64,000 nucleotides of DNA from Methanorbis rubei. GTDB taxonomy: Archaea > Halobacteriota > Methanomicrobia > Methanomicrobiales > Methanocorpusculaceae. The number at the start of each line of letters is the position of its first letter. The stretch's first letter is position 1. This document shows positions 39,914-48,557 of the stretch, in pieces. The stretch is from contig NZ_JAWDKB010000002.1 of assembly GCF_032714495.1 (NCBI RefSeq), forward strand, positions 186,001 through 250,000, in the 5' to 3' direction. The translations under genes and the position numbers were made by a program. The notes beneath the pieces are model-generated. The model made no database searches, had not been told where the DNA came from, and worked only from the letters and a program-made list of their open reading frames with translations.

Positions 39914-40020
39914 ATTTCTTAATTTATTTTAAATATATAAATAAGTATCGTCAAAGGTGTTTTTCTGATAATGTTCGGTAAATGATTTCCGTTTTTTTTG
40001 GGATTTTTGTATGTGACTTC

Positions 40021-40065
40021 GCTTGGGGTAACCACGGAATGCACAGAAAAATATCGGAAGAAGAA
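40021..40065. repeat. Solo R4 fragment
   Basis: GGGGTAACCACGGAATGCAC followed by AGAAAAAT matches the R4 arm but has no opposite arm. It lies in the 189-bp gap before the UppS-like gene. Confidence 0.45.
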
Positions 40066-40102
40066 CGTATTCATATTCTTCCAAGTGCAAAAGATCTACT
40101 GA

Positions 40103-40705
40103 ATGGTCTATCCGTTCTATGAATACCTCATCGAGAGAAAACTGGATGAGCATATGTTTCCCGGAGAAATCTGCTTCATGCTCAGCGAAGCGGATTTTCT
40201 TGCAAATCCCGGGCGGGTAGAAACGGTCTCTCGGTGGTGCATGGACTTCCCCAAAATCGAAAAAATTATTTTTCATATCAGCTCCAAAAATCCCGACTCC
40301 CTCAAAGAGATGGTCCCGTCTCTCGAAAATCTCGCGAAAGACGCAACGGTCCGCCTCAGCACACCGTCCGGCGAGGAGGTCTGCGGTTCAGGAAAACCGG
40401 AGATTCTTCTCGTGATCGGACGAAGCGGTCGAGAAGAGATAGCAGAAGCAATCGCCTGGATTGCGAGGGAAGACATCGGCCCTGAAAAGATCACCGAAGA
40501 GATGATCGAGTCGCATCTCCGGTATCAGGTGAATCCTGACTTTGTGATAAAAACCGGCGGGAGTCATCTGACGGACTTTCTGATCTGGCAGTCCGTCTAC
40601 TCGGAACTGTTTTTTACTGACGTCAACTGGAACAGATTCCGGCGCATGGATTTCCTCAGAGCACTTCGCGACTATCAAACAAGAGTACGGCGATACGGCC
40701 AGTAG
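40103..40705 (+). CDS. Degenerate cis-prenyltransferase (UppS-like) lacking the catalytic Asp
   Basis: A 200-residue protein whose last third is clearly UppS-like: FVIKTGGSHLTDFLIWQSVY and SELFFTDVNWNRFRRMDFLR, then ALRDYQTRVRRYGQ, equal to the family's conserved [29 protein letters not shown] block. The N-terminal MDGNGRWA block with the catalytic aspartate is missing: the protein begins MVYPFYEYLIERKLDEHMFP. The real uppS of this genome lies near 50 kb. This copy may be a regulatory subunit or partner, as with Nus1/NgBR-type proteins in eukaryotes, or a decaying duplicate, but the frame is intact. Two bp separate it from the DUF1848 gene. Confidence 0.75.
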   Translation: MVYPFYEYLIERKLDEHMFPGEICFMLSEADFLANPGRVETVSRWCMDFPKIEKIIFHISSKNPDSLKEMVPSLENLAKDATVRLSTPSGEEVCGSGKPEILLVIGRSGREEIAEAIAWIAREDIGPEKITEEMIESHLRYQVNPDFVIKTGGSHLTDFLIWQSVYSELFFTDVNWNRFRRMDFLRALRDYQTRVRRYGQ

Positions 40706-40707
40706 AT

Positions 40708-41610
40708 ATGATCATTTCCGCAAGCAGACGAACCGACATCCCTACCTGTTTTCCGGAATGGTTTTGCAGACGACTTTCCGAAGGATTCTGTTATGTGCGC
40801 AACCCGTACTCACAAAAAATCACGCATGTTTCTTTGAAGGCGGAACATGTTGACGCGATTGTTTTCTGGACAAAAAATGCCGGACCTCTGTTGCCGCATC
40901 TTTCCCGTCTCGACGCAACTGGAATTCCATACTACTTTCAGTACACCATAACGCCATACGGCCCTGACATCGAAACGAATCTGAACAAGGATCACTGCAT
41001 CGAAAATTTTCTTGAGTTGTCTGACCGCATTGGAAAGGATCGCGTGTTGTGGCGGTATGATCCGATCCTTGTCACGAAAAAATATTCGACAGAGTTTCAC
41101 GAGGAAGCGTTTGCAAAATTTTGCGAAAAATTTTCCAATGCAACCACTCGCTGCACGATAAGTTTCGTTGACGCATACTTTTCCTCGCCGTTTCGTGAAT
41201 GTACTGTCTCTGAGATGAACACACTCGCAGAAAAATTTTCTGCGATAGCAGAAAATTTTGGGCTGCCGTTTTTCTCCTGTGCGGAGAGACACTGCCTCTC
41301 CGCCTTCGGTATAACCCCTTCATCCTGCACCGACAAAAATTTGTGTGAGGATATGTGCGGCCATACACTTTCCCTCAAAAAAGATCTCAACCAACGCCCC
41401 TCATGTAACTGCGTGGAAAGTGTTGACATTGGCGGCTATCATACCTGCCGGAACGGATGTCTCTACTGTTATGCCTCAGGAGGTAGCGTGCCCAAAGAAC
41501 ACGATTCGCTCTCGCCGCTTATCTTTGGAATTCCCGGTGAGAATGAAAAGATATATGATCAAAATACACTGAAATCGCATGATTATCAGACAAATCTGTT
41601 TTTTACATGA
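40708..41610 (+). CDS. DUF1848 family protein with C-terminal cysteine cluster
   Basis: A 300-residue protein of the DUF1848 family: start MIISASRRTDIPTCFPEWF, barrel-like middle (VFWTKNAGPLLPHL, FQYTITPYG), and a C-terminal cysteine-rich part with Cys233, Cys235 and the radical SAM-like triplet Cys247-x3-Cys251-x2-Cys254 (CRNGCLYCYASGG). The family is thought to bind an iron-sulfur cluster and may be related to radical SAM repair enzymes, but activity is unknown. It follows the UppS-like gene by 2 bp. A truncated duplicate of its 3' part lies 2.8 kb downstream. Confidence 0.8.
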   Translation: MIISASRRTDIPTCFPEWFCRRLSEGFCYVRNPYSQKITHVSLKAEHVDAIVFWTKNAGPLLPHLSRLDATGIPYYFQYTITPYGPDIETNLNKDHCIENFLELSDRIGKDRVLWRYDPILVTKKYSTEFHEEAFAKFCEKFSNATTRCTISFVDAYFSSPFRECTVSEMNTLAEKFSAIAENFGLPFFSCAERHCLSAFGITPSSCTDKNLCEDMCGHTLSLKKDLNQRPSCNCVESVDIGGYHTCRNGCLYCYASGGSVPKEHDSLSPLIFGIPGENEKIYDQNTLKSHDYQTNLFFT

Positions 41611-41697
41611 TCAAAAACAATTGTGCTCAGAATTGATAATAATAAAAAATATTTTGTGACAATGTATTTAAATTATCGGTTTAAATCATAAAGTACT

Positions 41698-43365
41698 ATG
41701 AATAAACAATGGTTACTCCTGTCTGGTATTCTTGCAGTAGGCATTGTTGCTTTAGGTGTTTTTGCAGCATACCACTGGTCAGACAGTCCTGCTCCGATAA
41801 CGAACGTCTCTGATGAGATGAGGGAGGTGGCGAACACCCTTCATAACTTTATGGTGAACCGGACGGAAGGGTACAACTCTGATATGCACCGCACCGCATC
41901 AGCACTTACCGGCGTTACAGATAAAAAAAATATCACCGATATTTTGTACGAACTCTACTGGGAGCATCCTGACGGCCCCGGAGTTTATTTGGTGAACGCC
42001 TCAGGCGGAGTCGTCGCAACTGTACCGTACGCGAGCATGAATGATGTTCTTAATAATCCCGAGATTCAGGCGATCACAGAAAAGTCGTTTTCCAATGCCA
42101 CTGATCTGAGACTTGAAGGACCTATCTACACCCAGTCTTACGGTGAGGTGCTCTGCTTCGTTCTTCCGGTATATACTGCGGACGGCGTCTACGACGGATA
42201 CATCTGTCTTGGTCAAACCCCGGGAATTTTGGCTGATTATGTGTTCCCGTACTCAACAGGTTCCAACGAACGCTACGATGTATGGATAACCCGTCCTGAC
42301 GGCACAATCCTCTGGCATCCCAACTCGGATCTTATCGGAAAAAACATCCGGACATCCCGTCTGTTTGATGAGTTCAGAAAAGAGATGCTGCCAATTCTGG
42401 AAAATCCCGAGGGAGAAACCTCATACAGGTACCGGGTGCTTGGCTATGACACCACCATTCTTGAAAAACAGGCTGTGTGGAAGACCGTGATGGTCAGTGA
42501 CATGCCGTCCTGTGTGGTTCTGGTGAACTATCAGTATGCCGAACCAGACATTGTGTTTCCGGAAAATATGACGACTGTGTATCTGCAGAATGTTGTGAGG
42601 TCCATGTATCAGTATGCCGGATCCCACTCAAAAGAGCAGACCTTTGCCGCAATCAACGATCCGAACGGTCCGTTCACGGAGAAAGGAGTTCTCACGTTTG
42701 CCTATGACATGAATGGAACAGTGCTTGCCCACTCCACCCTTCCGCATATGATAGGTGAACAGCGGCTGAATTATCTGGGGGCATACGGCGCAACCCATCC
42801 GGTTGTCGGCATGATCAGCCGTGCGTCGCAGGGAGGCGGGTTTACGCATTACTATGCGTCTCTTCCGTACTCAGATAACATGGCAACCTTTGATCTCAGT
42901 TATGTTCTGCCGGTGGATGACACCTGGTTTGTCGGCGCCTCCATTCCGGTAACCGATACCCTGTTCACGTATAATTCTGAATTCAGAGCCGAACTGCATA
43001 AAAATTTGGAGTATGCGAGAAAGTATCTGAACGAGCATGGAAAGGAGCAGACACTTGAGGAGCTGATGGCCCCGTCCGGTGTCTTCCGGACAGATAATGT
43101 CTCAGTGTTCGCGGCAAATTACAATGGAACTATACTCGCTGCATCGGATATTTTTCCAGGCTCGGTTGGTGAGAACTCATTCTCGGTGATCTCATATCAT
43201 GGCGGATCTGTTGGCAGGGAGTTTGTGATTCTCGCAAAGTCCGGTGGAGGGTTCACGTATTATGATACTGAGACGGGAGTTTATCTGATCTATATCGAGC
43301 CGGTTGATGACACCTGGTATATGGGAACCGGAGTACGGATAGGTGATTCCCACCCTTCAGCCTGA
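41698..43365 (+). CDS. Membrane-anchored Cache-domain protein, copy 1
   Basis: A 555-residue protein: one N-terminal membrane anchor (about 5-25), then only extracellular sequence. Cache-like elements appear three times, recognisable by ITRPDGTILWHPNSDLIGKN, by MNGTVLAHSTLPHMIGEQRL with GGGFTHYY and VDDTWFVGASIP, and by YNGTILAASDIF with GGGFTYYDTETG and EPVDDTWYMGTG. Cache modules bind small ligands, but the usual cytoplasmic kinase or chemotaxis output is absent. The stop overlaps a GAGGAGG site for the pilin-like gene 13 bp further on. A second copy is found in the tandem duplicate. It could be an extracellular ligand-binding part of a pilus or surface complex. Confidence 0.8.
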   Translation: MNKQWLLLSGILAVGIVALGVFAAYHWSDSPAPITNVSDEMREVANTLHNFMVNRTEGYNSDMHRTASALTGVTDKKNITDILYELYWEHPDGPGVYLVNASGGVVATVPYASMNDVLNNPEIQAITEKSFSNATDLRLEGPIYTQSYGEVLCFVLPVYTADGVYDGYICLGQTPGILADYVFPYSTGSNERYDVWITRPDGTILWHPNSDLIGKNIRTSRLFDEFRKEMLPILENPEGETSYRYRVLGYDTTILEKQAVWKTVMVSDMPSCVVLVNYQYAEPDIVFPENMTTVYLQNVVRSMYQYAGSHSKEQTFAAINDPNGPFTEKGVLTFAYDMNGTVLAHSTLPHMIGEQRLNYLGAYGATHPVVGMISRASQGGGFTHYYASLPYSDNMATFDLSYVLPVDDTWFVGASIPVTDTLFTYNSEFRAELHKNLEYARKYLNEHGKEQTLEELMAPSGVFRTDNVSVFAANYNGTILAASDIFPGSVGENSFSVISYHGGSVGREFVILAKSGGGFTYYDTETGVYLIYIEPVDDTWYMGTGVRIGDSHPSA

Positions 43366-43378
43366 GGAGGAAAAAAAT

Positions 43379-43807
43379 ATGGAATCATGTGTATATGCAA
43401 ACAACTATGATACGCGGTCTGCCAGACATTCCGGGTTTTTTCCTCTGCTGATTGGCATCATTCTAATTATCGGCATTATTGGCGGACTGGTGTTTGCAGG
43501 GATAATGGCGATGGACAGGATCGTTGAAAATGTGGAAAAAAATGCTGCGGTAATCGTGCATCTGTATGGTGATGATATCGAGGTGATGATTCTTTCCAGT
43601 TCGTTTGAAAAGGAAATTACTTCTATTGAGATCTCTATCGATGAGGTTCCTGATAGTAGAAGGATACACCCGGTCACTCTCGGAACTCCGTTTCTCTTCA
43701 AAAATATTGCAGTGGGAGTTACCGGCTCAAAGTTTGTTGTGATCAATGCGGTGTTTACGGATGGATCATCCACAGTTATTCACTACACGAAATTTCAGTT
43801 CTCCTAA
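43379..43807 (+). CDS. Type IV pilin-like protein, copy 1
   Basis: A 142-residue protein with a class III (prepilin) leader. A short basic N terminus ends in SARHSG (cleavage predicted after Gly19), then FFPLLIGIILIIGIIGGLVF, the hydrophobic helix that builds archaeal pili. The rest is a compact beta domain (VIVHLYGDDIEVMILSSSFE, IAVGVTGSKFVVINAVF). The Cache gene ends 13 bp upstream with a strong GAGGAGG site, so the two are one operon. A prepilin peptidase of the right type is encoded 2.8 kb downstream. Confidence 0.75.
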   Translation: MESCVYANNYDTRSARHSGFFPLLIGIILIIGIIGGLVFAGIMAMDRIVENVEKNAAVIVHLYGDDIEVMILSSSFEKEITSIEISIDEVPDSRRIHPVTLGTPFLFKNIAVGVTGSKFVVINAVFTDGSSTVIHYTKFQFS

Positions 43808-43828
43808 TTTTTTTATCCGATTATCTCA

Positions 43829-44096
43829 TCAGCACTGCGCCAGCCATCTTGAATCCAGAAGGGCCCAAGAATGTGGCCGATAGTGATTGGAATCATGAAC
43901 GGGGTGTCGTGATGATCCAGACTCTGCCTGATCTTCAGTGAAGGTTGAGTTCTTTTGTGTGCTCTTCCAGACATTCGCGGAGGTTGCGGATGGAGCTTGA
44001 TGCAGGGAGGAACTTTCTCGTGATTTTGTCGCCGTCTGTGATCTCTTCGGCAACAAATCCGAAGGATTTTGTGGTCGTGTTTCCCGGAACCGACAT
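43829..44096 (-). pseudogene. Relic of the A24 prepilin peptidase 3' half
   Basis: Read in pieces on the minus strand it gives FGFVAEEITDGDKITRKFLP and ASSSIRNLRECLEEH, matching the intact peptidase at 46580-47350, but with a frame change and a deletion of about 35 bp relative to the intact copy (the SIRALKKNSALSIRN part). It is left over from the tandem duplication. Confidence 0.8.
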
Positions 44097-44382
44097 CACT
44101 CCCTCATCCTGCATTGACAAATATTTGTGCGGTCTCGCACTTTCCCTTAAAAAAGATCACAACCAGCGAATTTCATGCAACTGCGTGGAAAGTGTTGACA
44201 TTGGCGGCTACCCTGCCTGCCGGAAAGAATGCCACTACTGTTATGCCTCAGGCGACAATGTGACAACATCACACTATCCTCTCTCACTGCTTATCTCAGG
44301 ACTTACTGATAAAAATGAGCTTGTATGTGATCAAAATACACTAAAATCTCATGATTATCAGACAAAGCTGTTGTTCAAATGA
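44096..44382 (+). pseudogene. Relic of the DUF1848 gene 3' third
   Basis: Encodes PSSCIDKYLCGLALSLKKDH and CNCVESVDIGGYPACRKECH then YCYASGDN, collinear with residues 205-300 of the intact DUF1848 protein, keeping the Cys triplet, but with no 5' part and a short internal loss (EDMCGHT region). An open frame that seems to continue upstream is antisense peptidase sequence, so no real start exists. Confidence 0.8.
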
Positions 44383-44469
44383 TTAAAAACAATTGTCCTA
44401 GATATTGATAATAATACAAAATATTTTATGATAATCTATATATATACTCGGCTTAAATTATTATTTGTG

Positions 44470-46137
44470 ATGAATAAACGTTGGTTATTCCTGTCTGGTG
44501 TTTTTGCAGTATGTATTATTGCAGTGGGTGTTTTTACAGTATGCTGCTGGCCAGACAGTACCACACCAACGACCAATATTTCTGATGAGATGCGGGAAAT
44601 GGAAGACGCACTTCATGAGTTCATAGCGAACCAAACCAAAGAAATCGATGCAGATATGCAGCACACTGCAGCTGCACTTACCGGTGTTGAGGATGAAAAA
44701 AATATCACCGACATTTTGTATGAACTTTATTGGAAGTATCCTGACGGTCCCGGAGTTTATCGGGCGAACGCTTCTGGCGATGTCATTGTAACTGTACCAT
44801 ACACGAGTATGAATGATGCTCTCAATAATCCCGAACTTCAGGCGATCATGGAATCGTCATTTTCCAATGCCACTGATCTGAGACTTGAAGGCCCTGTTTA
44901 CACCCAGGCCTACGGAGAGGTGATGTGTCTCATTCTGCCGGTGTATACTGTGGACGGCGTGTACGACGGATACATCTGTCTTGGTCAGTCCCCGGAAATC
45001 CTGACCAATCGCGTGTCTCTGTGTTCAGCAGATTCCTGCGAACGCTACGATGTGTGGATAGCCCGTCCTGACGGCACCGTCCTGTGGCATCCCAACTCTG
45101 ACCTGATCGGACACAACATCCAGACGTCTCATCTGTTTGACGAGTTCAGACCTGAAATGCTGCCGATTCTGGAAAAATCCGAAGGAGAAACCTCATACAG
45201 GTACCGGGTGCTTGGCTATGACACTACTGTTCTTGAAAAACAGGCTGTGTGGAGGACCGTAGAAATTGGCGGCGCACCGTTCCGCGTGGTTCTGATAAAC
45301 TACCATTATGTCAACCCGGAAGTTGTGCTTCCAGAAAATATGACGGATGTGTACCTGCAGGATATTGTGAGGTCCATGTACCTATATGCAGGATCCCACT
45401 CAAAAGAGCAGACCTTTACAGAAATTAATGATCCAAATGGTCTGTTCGCGGAGAAAGGAGTTCTCACGTTTGCCTATGACATGAACGGAACAGTGCTTGC
45501 TCACTCCACCCTTCCGCATATGATCGGAGAACAACGATTGAATTATCGGGAGGCATACAGTGCAACCAATCCAATTATCAGCATGATCAGCCGTGCCTCG
45601 CAGGGAGGAGGCTTTACGCATTATTATACTCCAATTCCGTACTCTGATCACATGGCCACATTTGATCTCTGCTATGTACAGTCGGTTGATGACACCTGGT
45701 TTGTCGGTGCTTCTATACCGGTAACCGATACCCTGTTCACGTATAGTGTTGAAACCAGAGATGAGCTGCATAAGAATCTGGAGAATGCGAGGAAGTACCT
45801 GAACGAACATGGGATGGAAAAAACGCTTGAGGAGCTAATGAATCCGTCCGGTGCTTTCCAGACAAATAACTCCTCGATGTTTGCGGCCTGGTATAACGGC
45901 ACTCTGCTCACAACCTCGGATATTCTTCCGTATGAGATTGGTGAAAATACGTTCTCGATGGTCTCGTACCATGGCGGATCTATTGGCAGGGAGTTTGTGA
46001 TTCTCGCAAAGTCCGGCGGAGGATTCACGTATTATGATACTGATACGGGAGTTTACCTGATCTATATTGAGCCGGTTGACGACACCTGGTATATAGGAAC
46101 CGGAGTACGGGTTGGTGATTCCCACCCTTCAACCTGA
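44470..46137 (+). CDS. Membrane-anchored Cache-domain protein, copy 2
   Basis: A 555-residue duplicate of the upstream Cache protein with the same layout: N-terminal membrane anchor (WLFLSGVFAVCIIAVGVF), three Cache-like segments (IARPDGTVLWHPNSDLIGHN; MNGTVLAHSTLPHMIGEQRL; YNGTLLTTSDILPYEIGENT) and a C-terminal EPVDDTWYIGTGVRVG. Changes are spread through the ectodomain while the aromatic and acidic core of each Cache module is kept, so both copies appear to be under selection, perhaps for different ligands. It is followed by its own pilin-like gene with the same GAGGAGG spacing. Confidence 0.8.
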   Translation: MNKRWLFLSGVFAVCIIAVGVFTVCCWPDSTTPTTNISDEMREMEDALHEFIANQTKEIDADMQHTAAALTGVEDEKNITDILYELYWKYPDGPGVYRANASGDVIVTVPYTSMNDALNNPELQAIMESSFSNATDLRLEGPVYTQAYGEVMCLILPVYTVDGVYDGYICLGQSPEILTNRVSLCSADSCERYDVWIARPDGTVLWHPNSDLIGHNIQTSHLFDEFRPEMLPILEKSEGETSYRYRVLGYDTTVLEKQAVWRTVEIGGAPFRVVLINYHYVNPEVVLPENMTDVYLQDIVRSMYLYAGSHSKEQTFTEINDPNGLFAEKGVLTFAYDMNGTVLAHSTLPHMIGEQRLNYREAYSATNPIISMISRASQGGGFTHYYTPIPYSDHMATFDLCYVQSVDDTWFVGASIPVTDTLFTYSVETRDELHKNLENARKYLNEHGMEKTLEELMNPSGAFQTNNSSMFAAWYNGTLLTTSDILPYEIGENTFSMVSYHGGSIGREFVILAKSGGGFTYYDTDTGVYLIYIEPVDDTWYIGTGVRVGDSHPST

Positions 46138-46150
46138 GGAGGAAAAAAAT

Positions 46151-46573
46151 ATGGAAATGTACACAGATATCTATGAAATGCAGTCTGCAAGGCATTGCGG
46201 AGTTTCGTCTCTGCTGATTGTCATCCTTCTTGTAATAAGTATCATTGGCGGAATGGTATTTACAGGAATGATGGCAACGGCCCCGATCGTTGAGAATGTA
46301 GAGAAAAATGCGGTGATAACGGTGCATCTGCAGGGTGATGATGTGATGATTACACTCCTTGCAAATTCGTTCAGGCAAAAAATTTCCTCGATTGAGGTTT
46401 CCATCGATGGAGTTTCCGGACGCAGCATGACAAAACCGATTGCTATCGGAACTCCGGTTCTTTGCAAAGATATTGCCGAGGGAGTTACCGGTTCAAAGTT
46501 TATTGTGATCAATGCAAGGTTTGCGGATGGGACGTCTGCTATTATTCATTACACGAGATTGCAGTTCTCGTAA
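46151..46573 (+). CDS. Type IV pilin-like protein, copy 2
   Basis: A 140-residue duplicate of the first pilin-like protein. The leader ends in SARHCG (predicted cleavage after Gly17), followed by VSSLLIVILLVISIIGGMVF. The beta domain retains EKNAVITVHLQGDDVMITLL and AEGVTGSKFIVINARF. The proline of the canonical pilin helix start (FFPLL in copy 1) is replaced by Ser (VSSLL). Two N-terminal-region Met codons precede it; the one with GAGGAGG 8 bases upstream is used. It converges on the prepilin peptidase gene 7 bp away. Confidence 0.75.
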   Translation: MEMYTDIYEMQSARHCGVSSLLIVILLVISIIGGMVFTGMMATAPIVENVEKNAVITVHLQGDDVMITLLANSFRQKISSIEVSIDGVSGRSMTKPIAIGTPVLCKDIAEGVTGSKFIVINARFADGTSAIIHYTRLQFS

Positions 46574-46579
46574 ATTTTT

Positions 46580-47350
46580 TTATCCGAACACTACCATCAG
46601 GATTGCATCACCCAGACTGAATCCGAAGAGTGCGAGGATGTAGCCGATAGTGATTGGAATCATGAATGGAACGCCGTAGGTGATCCAGACGGCCCCCGCA
46701 CGCCGGTAGAGGTCGAGTTCGCTTGCATACTCTTCTGGACATTCGCGGAGGTTGCGAATCGAAAGAGCGGAATTTTTTTTCAGGGCACGAATAGAGCTTG
46801 ATGCAGGGAGGAACTCTCTCGTGATCGGATCACCGTCTGTGATCTCTTCAGCGACAAATCCGAAGTGTTTCGTGATTGTGTCGCCTGGAACCTGCATACC
46901 TGAGCACATCAGCCAGAACGGGGCTTTTTCTTTGCGGAGAATATTTTGTATGAGAAGCGCAAGCGGTACCAGTAGCGCAATGACGCTTGCGTTCAGAAGA
47001 GTTGAGAGGGCGAGGGAAGGAACAATCCATGCGGCAAACGGTGTGATGGGGACTGTTGCTGCGAGGAGAATCATCGCTTTTGCATCAGCCCAGCCGAACA
47101 TACCTGCTCTTGCAAACATCCACATCATGACACAGACGATTATGGAAATTGCAAAAACAATTACTGCCACATTTGAGGGCTGGAGATACTGCTGATACCA
47201 GAAGTATGTGACAGAAATTCCTCCGATGACTGCCGCAGGGTACCAGGTGTTAGTCAGTACGGTACGGGTTTTGATGTCCTGCCATGATGCGTAGAGAAAT
47301 GTTACGAGAACCGCGATCGCGGAGACGGCAAGAGGCAGGAGTTCATACAT
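46580..47350 (-). CDS. Type A24 prepilin peptidase (FlaK/EppA-like)
   Basis: A 256-residue membrane aspartic protease that cuts class III signal peptides of archaeal pilins or archaellins. The two catalytic aspartates are Asp25 in ASWQDIKTR and Asp89 in GWADAKAM, the archaeal variant of the GxGD motif. A cytoplasmic loop of about 75 residues (ITKHFGFVAEEITDGDPITR region) is longer than in minimal EppA. The N-terminal part gives several membrane helices, and a final helix pair ends the protein. It converges with the duplicated pilin-like gene and probably processes both copies. Confidence 0.85.
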   Translation of the reverse strand: MYELLPLAVSAIAVLVTFLYASWQDIKTRTVLTNTWYPAAVIGGISVTYFWYQQYLQPSNVAVIVFAISIIVCVMMWMFARAGMFGWADAKAMILLAATVPITPFAAWIVPSLALSTLLNASVIALLVPLALLIQNILRKEKAPFWLMCSGMQVPGDTITKHFGFVAEEITDGDPITREFLPASSSIRALKKNSALSIRNLRECPEEYASELDLYRRAGAVWITYGVPFMIPITIGYILALFGFSLGDAILMVVFG

Positions 47351-47406
47351 TATGCAATAGTTGGATGTGAAAGAATTTGAAATTTAGCGGCATTAAAAAA
47401 TAGAAA

Positions 47407-47787
47407 TTATTTGAAGATCTCTGCTGCTTCGGTTTTGCCGTAGACATAGGACGGCATGCCGGCAAGCATGAAGGTAACCCGAAGGGCTTCTTCCACTTCG
47501 GCCATGGTGACACCGAGGTGTTTTGCTCCCTGAAGTTGTGCGTGCAATGCGTGATCATCGCGCATTGATGCGGCAATTGCAATTGCCATCAGTTTTTTCT
47601 GTTTACGCGAGAGTGCGCCGTCAGACCAGATGTAGTTGTCAAGCTTCAGGACCGCCTCGTGCATTGCAGGGTCCGACTTTGCGAGATCGCGGAAGAAGAC
47701 CGGAACGTGGCCGATATTTTCCTCAAGTTGTTTCATGTCGCCAGCTTTGTAGTTGTGGCCGCCGCAGGGTATTTTTGGTTCGGTCAT
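47407..47787 (-). CDS. Carboxymuconolactone decarboxylase-like (AhpD fold) protein
   Basis: A 126-residue helical protein of the CMD/AhpD family: VPVFFRDLAKSDPAMHEAVL, LSRKQKKLMAIAIAASMRDD and HALHAQLQGAKHLGVTMAEV. The usual CxxC/His proton-relay pair is missing: the SMRDDHALH segment keeps His but has no Cys. It is therefore unlikely to be a peroxidase-type AhpD and more likely a decarboxylase-like or unknown-function member. AGGTGA sits just before the chosen ATG. It is divergent from a flavodoxin-like gene, suggesting redox context. Confidence 0.75.
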   Translation of the reverse strand: MTEPKIPCGGHNYKAGDMKQLEENIGHVPVFFRDLAKSDPAMHEAVLKLDNYIWSDGALSRKQKKLMAIAIAASMRDDHALHAQLQGAKHLGVTMAEVEEALRVTFMLAGMPSYVYGKTEAAEIFK

Positions 47788-47916
47788 GATAGTCTCACCT
47801 ATTTCATATATCTGCATGTTTTGATATTAGCCTTTTAGGTGGTGGCAATTTTTCCATGATTCTCTCAGCAATCATGATGCAAACTCCGGGAAATATTTTT
47901 TTCCGTATTCCAGATT

Positions 47917-47927
47917 TTTTTATACTC
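47917..47927 (+). promoter_or_regulatory. TATA box placing the start of transcription at the ATG
   Basis: TTTTTTATACTC lies about 25 bases before the ATG at 47949, and no ribosome-binding site precedes that ATG. Archaeal transcription starts about 25 bases after the TATA box, so the mRNA is probably leaderless. Confidence 0.5.
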
Positions 47928-47948
47928 ATCCGACCAAATACACCAGTA

Positions 47949-48557
47949 ATGACAAAAAAAGTGCTGGCGCTGTTCGGGAGCAATCTCATCGGAGGAAATA
48001 CCGACAAACTCCTAACCCAGGCGATCAATGGAGTTGAGGACGCCGGCTGTACGGTTGAGCGGATCAATGTTGCCCATGTGAATGCAGGCCCCTGCAATCA
48101 GACCTACTCTTGCATGGTGGAACCGACGTGTGCGATTGAGGACGGCATGAAGGATGCCTACCGGAAACTCAGGCAGGCAGACGGTATTATTATTGCAACG
48201 CCGGTGATGACCTACGGAGTTCCAGGCGCACTGAAATCATTTATGGACCGGTGCCAGCCGTTTTACATGGCAAAATACTACCGCAAACAGCCGTTCATCA
48301 CACCCGAACATGTGAAAATCCGCAGAACACTCTTCATCTGCATCGGAGGAATGAAGGATCCTGATATTTTTACCGGCCCGATCCTTACGACAAAAGCATT
48401 CTGCGCAATTGTGGATGCGAAATACGCTGACGAGCTGCTGCAGAACGATATGGATACCATTCTAAACGTCGACAAAAAACCCGAGCTTCTCGCAGAAGCG
48501 TACGAGAAGGGAAAGGCTCTCGGAGAACGCATCGTAAAAATGCGGGATGGGGAGTAA
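47949..48557 (+). CDS. Flavodoxin-fold NAD(P)H/FMN oxidoreductase
   Basis: A 202-residue FMN-binding protein of the NADPH-dependent FMN reductase family: VLALFGSNLIGGNTDKLLTQ phosphate loop, and IIATPVMTYGVPGALKSFMD isoalloxazine contact. Three Cys in NAGPCNQTYSCMVEPTCAIE form C-x5-C-x5-C, looser than the compact motif of the iron-sulfur flavoprotein near 5 kb, so a cluster is possible but uncertain. Start is the ATG after a TATA box, and an upstream extension of 31 residues has no homology. Divergent from the CMD-like gene. Confidence 0.8.
   Translation: MTKKVLALFGSNLIGGNTDKLLTQAINGVEDAGCTVERINVAHVNAGPCNQTYSCMVEPTCAIEDGMKDAYRKLRQADGIIIATPVMTYGVPGALKSFMDRCQPFYMAKYYRKQPFITPEHVKIRRTLFICIGGMKDPDIFTGPILTTKAFCAIVDAKYADELLQNDMDTILNVDKKPELLAEAYEKGKALGERIVKMRDGE

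Follow-up and report, generated by a model that had tools for sequence, protein, structure and literature searches.

Cache A and Cache B, the two membrane-anchored proteins encoded at the locus described here, are most closely related to the dCache/sCache sensor domains (PF02743, PF08269, PF17200), with which they share several Cache units and a PVDDTWxxG motif; their nearest solved sequence relatives are 5ere (an extracellular ligand-binding receptor), TlpB, and other chemoreceptor sensors. Unlike these sensors, both are stand-alone and carry no HAMP, methyl-accepting, kinase, or cyclase domain. A search of the 555-amino-acid sequences for a cytoplasmic signaling domain returned Cache domains only; each protein consists of several Cache units preceded by an N-terminal membrane helix. 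The gene that follows each of them resembles archaeal type IV pilins (PF07790, Pilin_N) in having an N-terminal hydrophobic helix and then a beta-rich domain, but both copies at this locus have a degenerate SPVI signal motif, which is better preserved in their paralogues. Neither copy directly matched an entry in Pfam or NCBIfam, including PF07790 and TIGR02537, whereas the profile of the whole family aligned with canonical Pilin_N pilins (hhalign probability of 98.1%, E = 1.2e-13, 119 columns); judged by sequence, the partner of Cache is aptly called "pilin-like." Models predicted from single sequences were not of sufficient quality for fold searching (pLDDT of 36 for Cache; pLDDT of 55 for the AlphaFold model of the pilin-like protein, with a long helix at residues 20 to 53 followed by strands).

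The genome under study (G000) belongs to a genus that is probably Methanocorpusculum, or else to a group classed with that genus, and its nearest relative is G004. The window (the whole 64,000-nucleotide stretch of DNA that was analyzed) contains the following features:

40708-41610, + strand: intact DUF1848 gene, 300 aa, left flank (Pfam PF08902, E = 5e-90)
41311-44091, + strand: repeat unit A (78.2% blastn match to 44095-46892)
41663-41690, + strand: putative TATA-type promoter for Cache A, within the duplicated unit (AT-rich box kept in A, B, and G004 at equal distance to the ATG)
41698-43365, + strand: Cache A, 555 aa, predicted membrane-anchored extracellular protein without an output domain (PF02743, PF08269, and PF17200 above cut-off)
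43379-43807, + strand: pilin-like A, 142 aa (GAGGAGG upstream; family-level hhalign of 98.1% to Pilin_N pilins)
43808-44094, - strand: 3'-terminal fragment of an A24 prepilin peptidase gene, covering residues about 151-252 and the end (tblastn, E = 7.7e-21, 57%)
43990-44382, + strand: candidate chimeric ORF across the junction, 130 aa (antisense-peptidase codons, then the Cys-rich tail of DUF1848)
44086-44095, no strand: hybrid junction GGAACC/GACATCAC, where peptidase sequence meets DUF1848 (alignment)
44095-44382, + strand: 3'-terminal DUF1848 fragment, residues about 201-299 (PF08902, E = 5.5e-14; tblastn, 68%)
44095-46892, + strand: repeat unit B (blastn match to unit A)
about 44435-44462, + strand: putative Cache B promoter, counterpart of the Cache A box (conserved AT-rich box)
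44470-46137, + strand: Cache B, 555 aa, 75% identical to Cache A (PF08269 and PF17200 above cut-off)
46151-46573, + strand: pilin-like B, 140 aa, 57% identical to pilin-like A (GAGGAGG upstream)
46580-47350, - strand: intact A24 (FlaK/EppA-type) prepilin peptidase gene, 256 aa, right flank (PF06847, E = 1.6e-15; PF01478, E = 4.2e-9)

The tandem repeat and its hybrid junction

A sequence-only reading of this DNA had proposed that a unit of 2.8 kb is repeated head to tail, with shared landmarks at a constant offset of about 2.79 kb. Self-blastn of positions 40000 to 48500 gave exactly one long off-diagonal match, collinear from DUF1848 into the peptidase gene, between 41311-44091 and 44095-46892 (78.2% over 2,830 columns, E = 0), and a repeat finder recovered it as collinear families with offsets of 2,766 to 2,801 bases. 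Beyond short pieces of Cache genes, the unit was matched nowhere else in the whole 1.83-Mb genome. The resulting gene order is intact DUF1848, Cache A, pilin-like A, antisense peptidase fragment, DUF1848 fragment, Cache B, pilin-like B, and intact A24 prepilin peptidase, that is, two collinear units in head-to-tail order, joined at a single new junction and flanked on the outside by intact genes, as in a tandem segmental duplication. The Cache and pilin-like genes are open in both copies, as had been noted. A 28-bp near-perfect palindrome (93% self-complementary) lies within DUF1848 at 41232 to 41259.

The junction is the hybrid that had been described, with antisense peptidase sequence up to about 44086 to 44095 and DUF1848 sequence from 44095 onward. 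The left breakpoint falls within the intact DUF1848 gene (about 41305 to 41311 by blastn and alignment) and the right one within the intact peptidase gene (about 46892). Because the endpoints lie inside these two convergent flanking genes, the middle fragments were never complete: they hold about 100 of the 256 peptidase codons and 100 of the 300 DUF1848 codons. The intact left DUF1848 and the intact right peptidase are the original single copies. Hence, the proposed selective loss of a second peptidase gene and a second DUF1848 gene does not hold, and the fragments, truncated at birth, are uninformative on whether selection would keep such copies; they record where the duplicated segment starts and stops and should not be read as second copies that failed.

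The related claim that the flanking pieces have decayed applies to the peptidase fragment, in which tblastn and alignment revealed two in-frame TGA codons and a 33-bp deletion, but not to the DUF1848 fragment, whose frame is open despite a 12-bp in-frame deletion and which shows no visible decay. Selection on the DUF1848 fragment was considered and rejected: its omega of 0.47 was indistinguishable both from 1 (P = 0.38) and from the value for the intact copy (P = 0.24), and the open frame is compatible with neutrality, under which the probability of encountering no stop is 0.12 to 0.37. The 33-bp deletion in the peptidase fragment also created the ATG of the candidate chimeric ORF, which lies 6 nt after a GGAGG at 43979 to 43983 and in frame with the Cys-rich tail of DUF1848.

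In the unduplicated G004, the sequences at the two breakpoints are CTTTGGCATCACC and GACCGGCATGCCT, with GGCAT common to both, and the junction in G000 reads GGAACCGACATCACT. The duplication thus probably arose by illegitimate recombination at a microhomology of ∼5 bp, for which five bases are suggestive only.

Ribosome-binding sites had been reported as intact for both gene types. This was borne out for the pilin-like genes, which have GAGGAGG shortly before each ATG, but not for the Cache genes, since no Shine-Dalgarno sequence was found upstream of either Cache start. Instead, the Cache starts of A, B, and G004 lie about 20 to 35 nt downstream of a TATA-like box, so each unit seems to carry its own promoter. 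For Cache B, a start at 44428 (569-aa ORF) is less likely than one at 44470. A cysteine that could belong to a lipobox follows the N-terminal hydrophobic helix in Cache B and in the G004 Cache protein and is absent from Cache A (compared regions, 41740 to 41785 and 44510 to 44555).

Age of the duplication

G004 represents the single-copy state, with one Cache/pilin-like pair between the orthologous DUF1848 and peptidase genes and no fragment of either at the site. No pair was found at the same site in five further genomes of the genus. In three of these (G024, G008, and G003), DUF1848 and the peptidase gene are convergent, with an 8-bp overlap of their 3' ends and nothing in between; the overlap is longer in G022, and in G016 the two genes are 67 bp apart. 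At the G016 site (L047), a short 3' tail of DUF1848 is repeated between the two convergent genes. Insertion of the pair into an ancestrally empty site is the simpler reading of this unrooted comparison. Because the peptidase gene occurs without the pair in other genomes, its position beside a pilin-like gene is probably incidental. Among the genomes compared, the duplicated state is found only in G000.

We propose, with a probability of about 0.85, that the ∼2.8-kb segment was duplicated in tandem after the split of G000 and G004 and that both operons have been kept by purifying selection since. The ancestral state would have been a Cache/pilin-like operon of two genes, driven by a promoter of its own and located between the convergent genes for DUF1848 and the prepilin peptidase. 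A segment reaching from inside DUF1848 to inside the peptidase gene would then have been duplicated, probably through the short microhomology, leaving the outer flanking genes intact, two complete operons, and the truncated peptidase/DUF1848 pair in the middle. In the tree of the 3' part of DUF1848, the fragment and the intact G000 copy were sisters to the exclusion of G004 with 100% bootstrap support. For Cache, the approximately unbiased (AU) test gave 0.978 for A plus B, versus 0.042 for A plus G004 and 0.020 for B plus G004. Neutral divergence between the Cache copies is about 0.45, about two-thirds of that to G004 (about 0.7). The tree of the peptidase fragment had no resolved topology, and the AU test on the pilin-like genes excluded none.

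A rather unlikely alternative is that the duplication predates the split, that G004 lost one copy, and that later conversion homogenized DUF1848-Cache in G000 and left pilin-peptidase untouched. Sites at which A and B agree with each other against G004 make up 304 of 624 informative sites (49%) in DUF1848-Cache versus 68 of 230 (30%) in pilin-peptidase, and this pattern breaks near 43396, at the start of the pilin-like gene (permutation P = 0.001 over all sites). Pilin-like A is also closer to its G004 counterpart (70% identity) than to pilin-like B (57%), and its synonymous divergences are star-like (dS of 0.29/0.38/0.34, versus 0.21/0.24/0.47 for Cache). However, the scan was not significant at third codon positions alone (P = 0.18; Fisher test, P = 0.027), the dS values of the pilin-like genes fit the branch ratios of Cache (likelihood ratio test, P = 0.135), and G004 has no peptidase or DUF1848 fragment. 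The drop in shared sites can be accounted for by faster protein change in pilin-like B together with unconstrained drift in the peptidase fragment. Gene conversion confined to the left part was rejected on the same grounds, being suggestive over all sites and not significant at third positions (P = 0.18). Replacement of pilin-like B by another paralogue was likewise rejected, as its best matches are still the G004 gene (63%) and pilin-like A (57%), followed by matches of ≤37%.

Selection on the two pairs

Under duplication after the split, both pairs have since remained under purifying selection, as the sequence-only reading had surmised. In a three-branch codon model with likelihood ratio tests against 1, omega was 0.37 for Cache A (P = 7e-5), 0.32 for Cache B (P = 3e-6), 0.34 for pilin-like A (P = 0.016), and 0.46 for pilin-like B (P = 0.039), so that omega is below 1 for all four genes, with weaker statistical support for the pilin-like genes. 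The somewhat faster pilin-like B might indicate that the second pair is becoming a pseudogene and persists merely by lag, but this is quite improbable given the strong departure of Cache B from neutrality, the lack of stops and frameshifts in pair B, and the symmetry of amino acid changes in Cache (42 unique to A versus 43 unique to B). That the repeat is an assembly artefact, made by joining two alleles or two strains end to end, is very unlikely: the evidence comes from one assembly of the species, but the 22% divergence between the copies far exceeds strain level, both lie within one 301-kb contig, the flanking genes are single and intact, and the middle fragments bear stops and deletions, including the 33-bp deletion in the peptidase fragment.

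As to why both operons were retained, we infer diversification of a cell surface ligand-binding module, in which a Cache protein anchored by its N-terminal helix and lacking an output domain would probably be cotranslated with its pilin-like partner.

Cache and pilin-like genes across the genus

In 13 genomes of the genus, 25 of 52 matches to the pilin-like genes directly follow a Cache gene in the same orientation, at a distance of 17 to 164 bp, and head-to-tail arrays of two to four Cache genes are common. Since the Cache-then-pilin-like arrangement recurs 25 times in these genomes, the present array is one recent step of a genus-wide expansion. Among 31 named loci from a scan of species genomes, pilin-like neighbors occurred only beside Cache genes of this genus, including those of a MAG labeled Methanocalculaceae (G022); none was seen in the short flanks of the Methanoculleus, Methanoregula, and Methanospirillum loci. 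A first contig scan with Cache A as the sole query gave no match. A further Cache array (L036, 5464 to 9286; L037, 5516 to 10956) comprises two tandem copies in G000 (C4), versus three in G004 (C5), and no pilin-like partner. In a G024 array (L040, 5165 to 16241), Cache and pilin-like genes, four of each, alternate for the most part.

A limited literature search returned no mention of a Cache/pilin-like pairing, of Cache proteins in Methanocorpusculum, or of DUF1848. It is possible, and we suggest it only tentatively, that these operons represent an undescribed and perhaps Methanocorpusculum-specific surface module, a sensor-type domain with a pilus-like partner, diversified by repeated duplication, and that the junction ORF at 43990 to 44382 is an expressed chimeric gene. 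It is this recurrent pairing that could open the way to new biology.

The locus itself is a clean but ordinary case of gene family growth by an ordinary mechanism. Its value is that related archaea show, at one site, a well-ordered series from no pair through one pair to two, and that both breakpoints can still be read. The other arrays of the genus (G024:C2, G008:C56, G000:C4, and G004:C5) resemble it in being tandem arrangements of the same gene families, either Cache or Cache/pilin-like, but their members are more diverged, and in a nonexhaustive look, the present array was the only one seen to have recognizable fragments of flanking genes between its copies.
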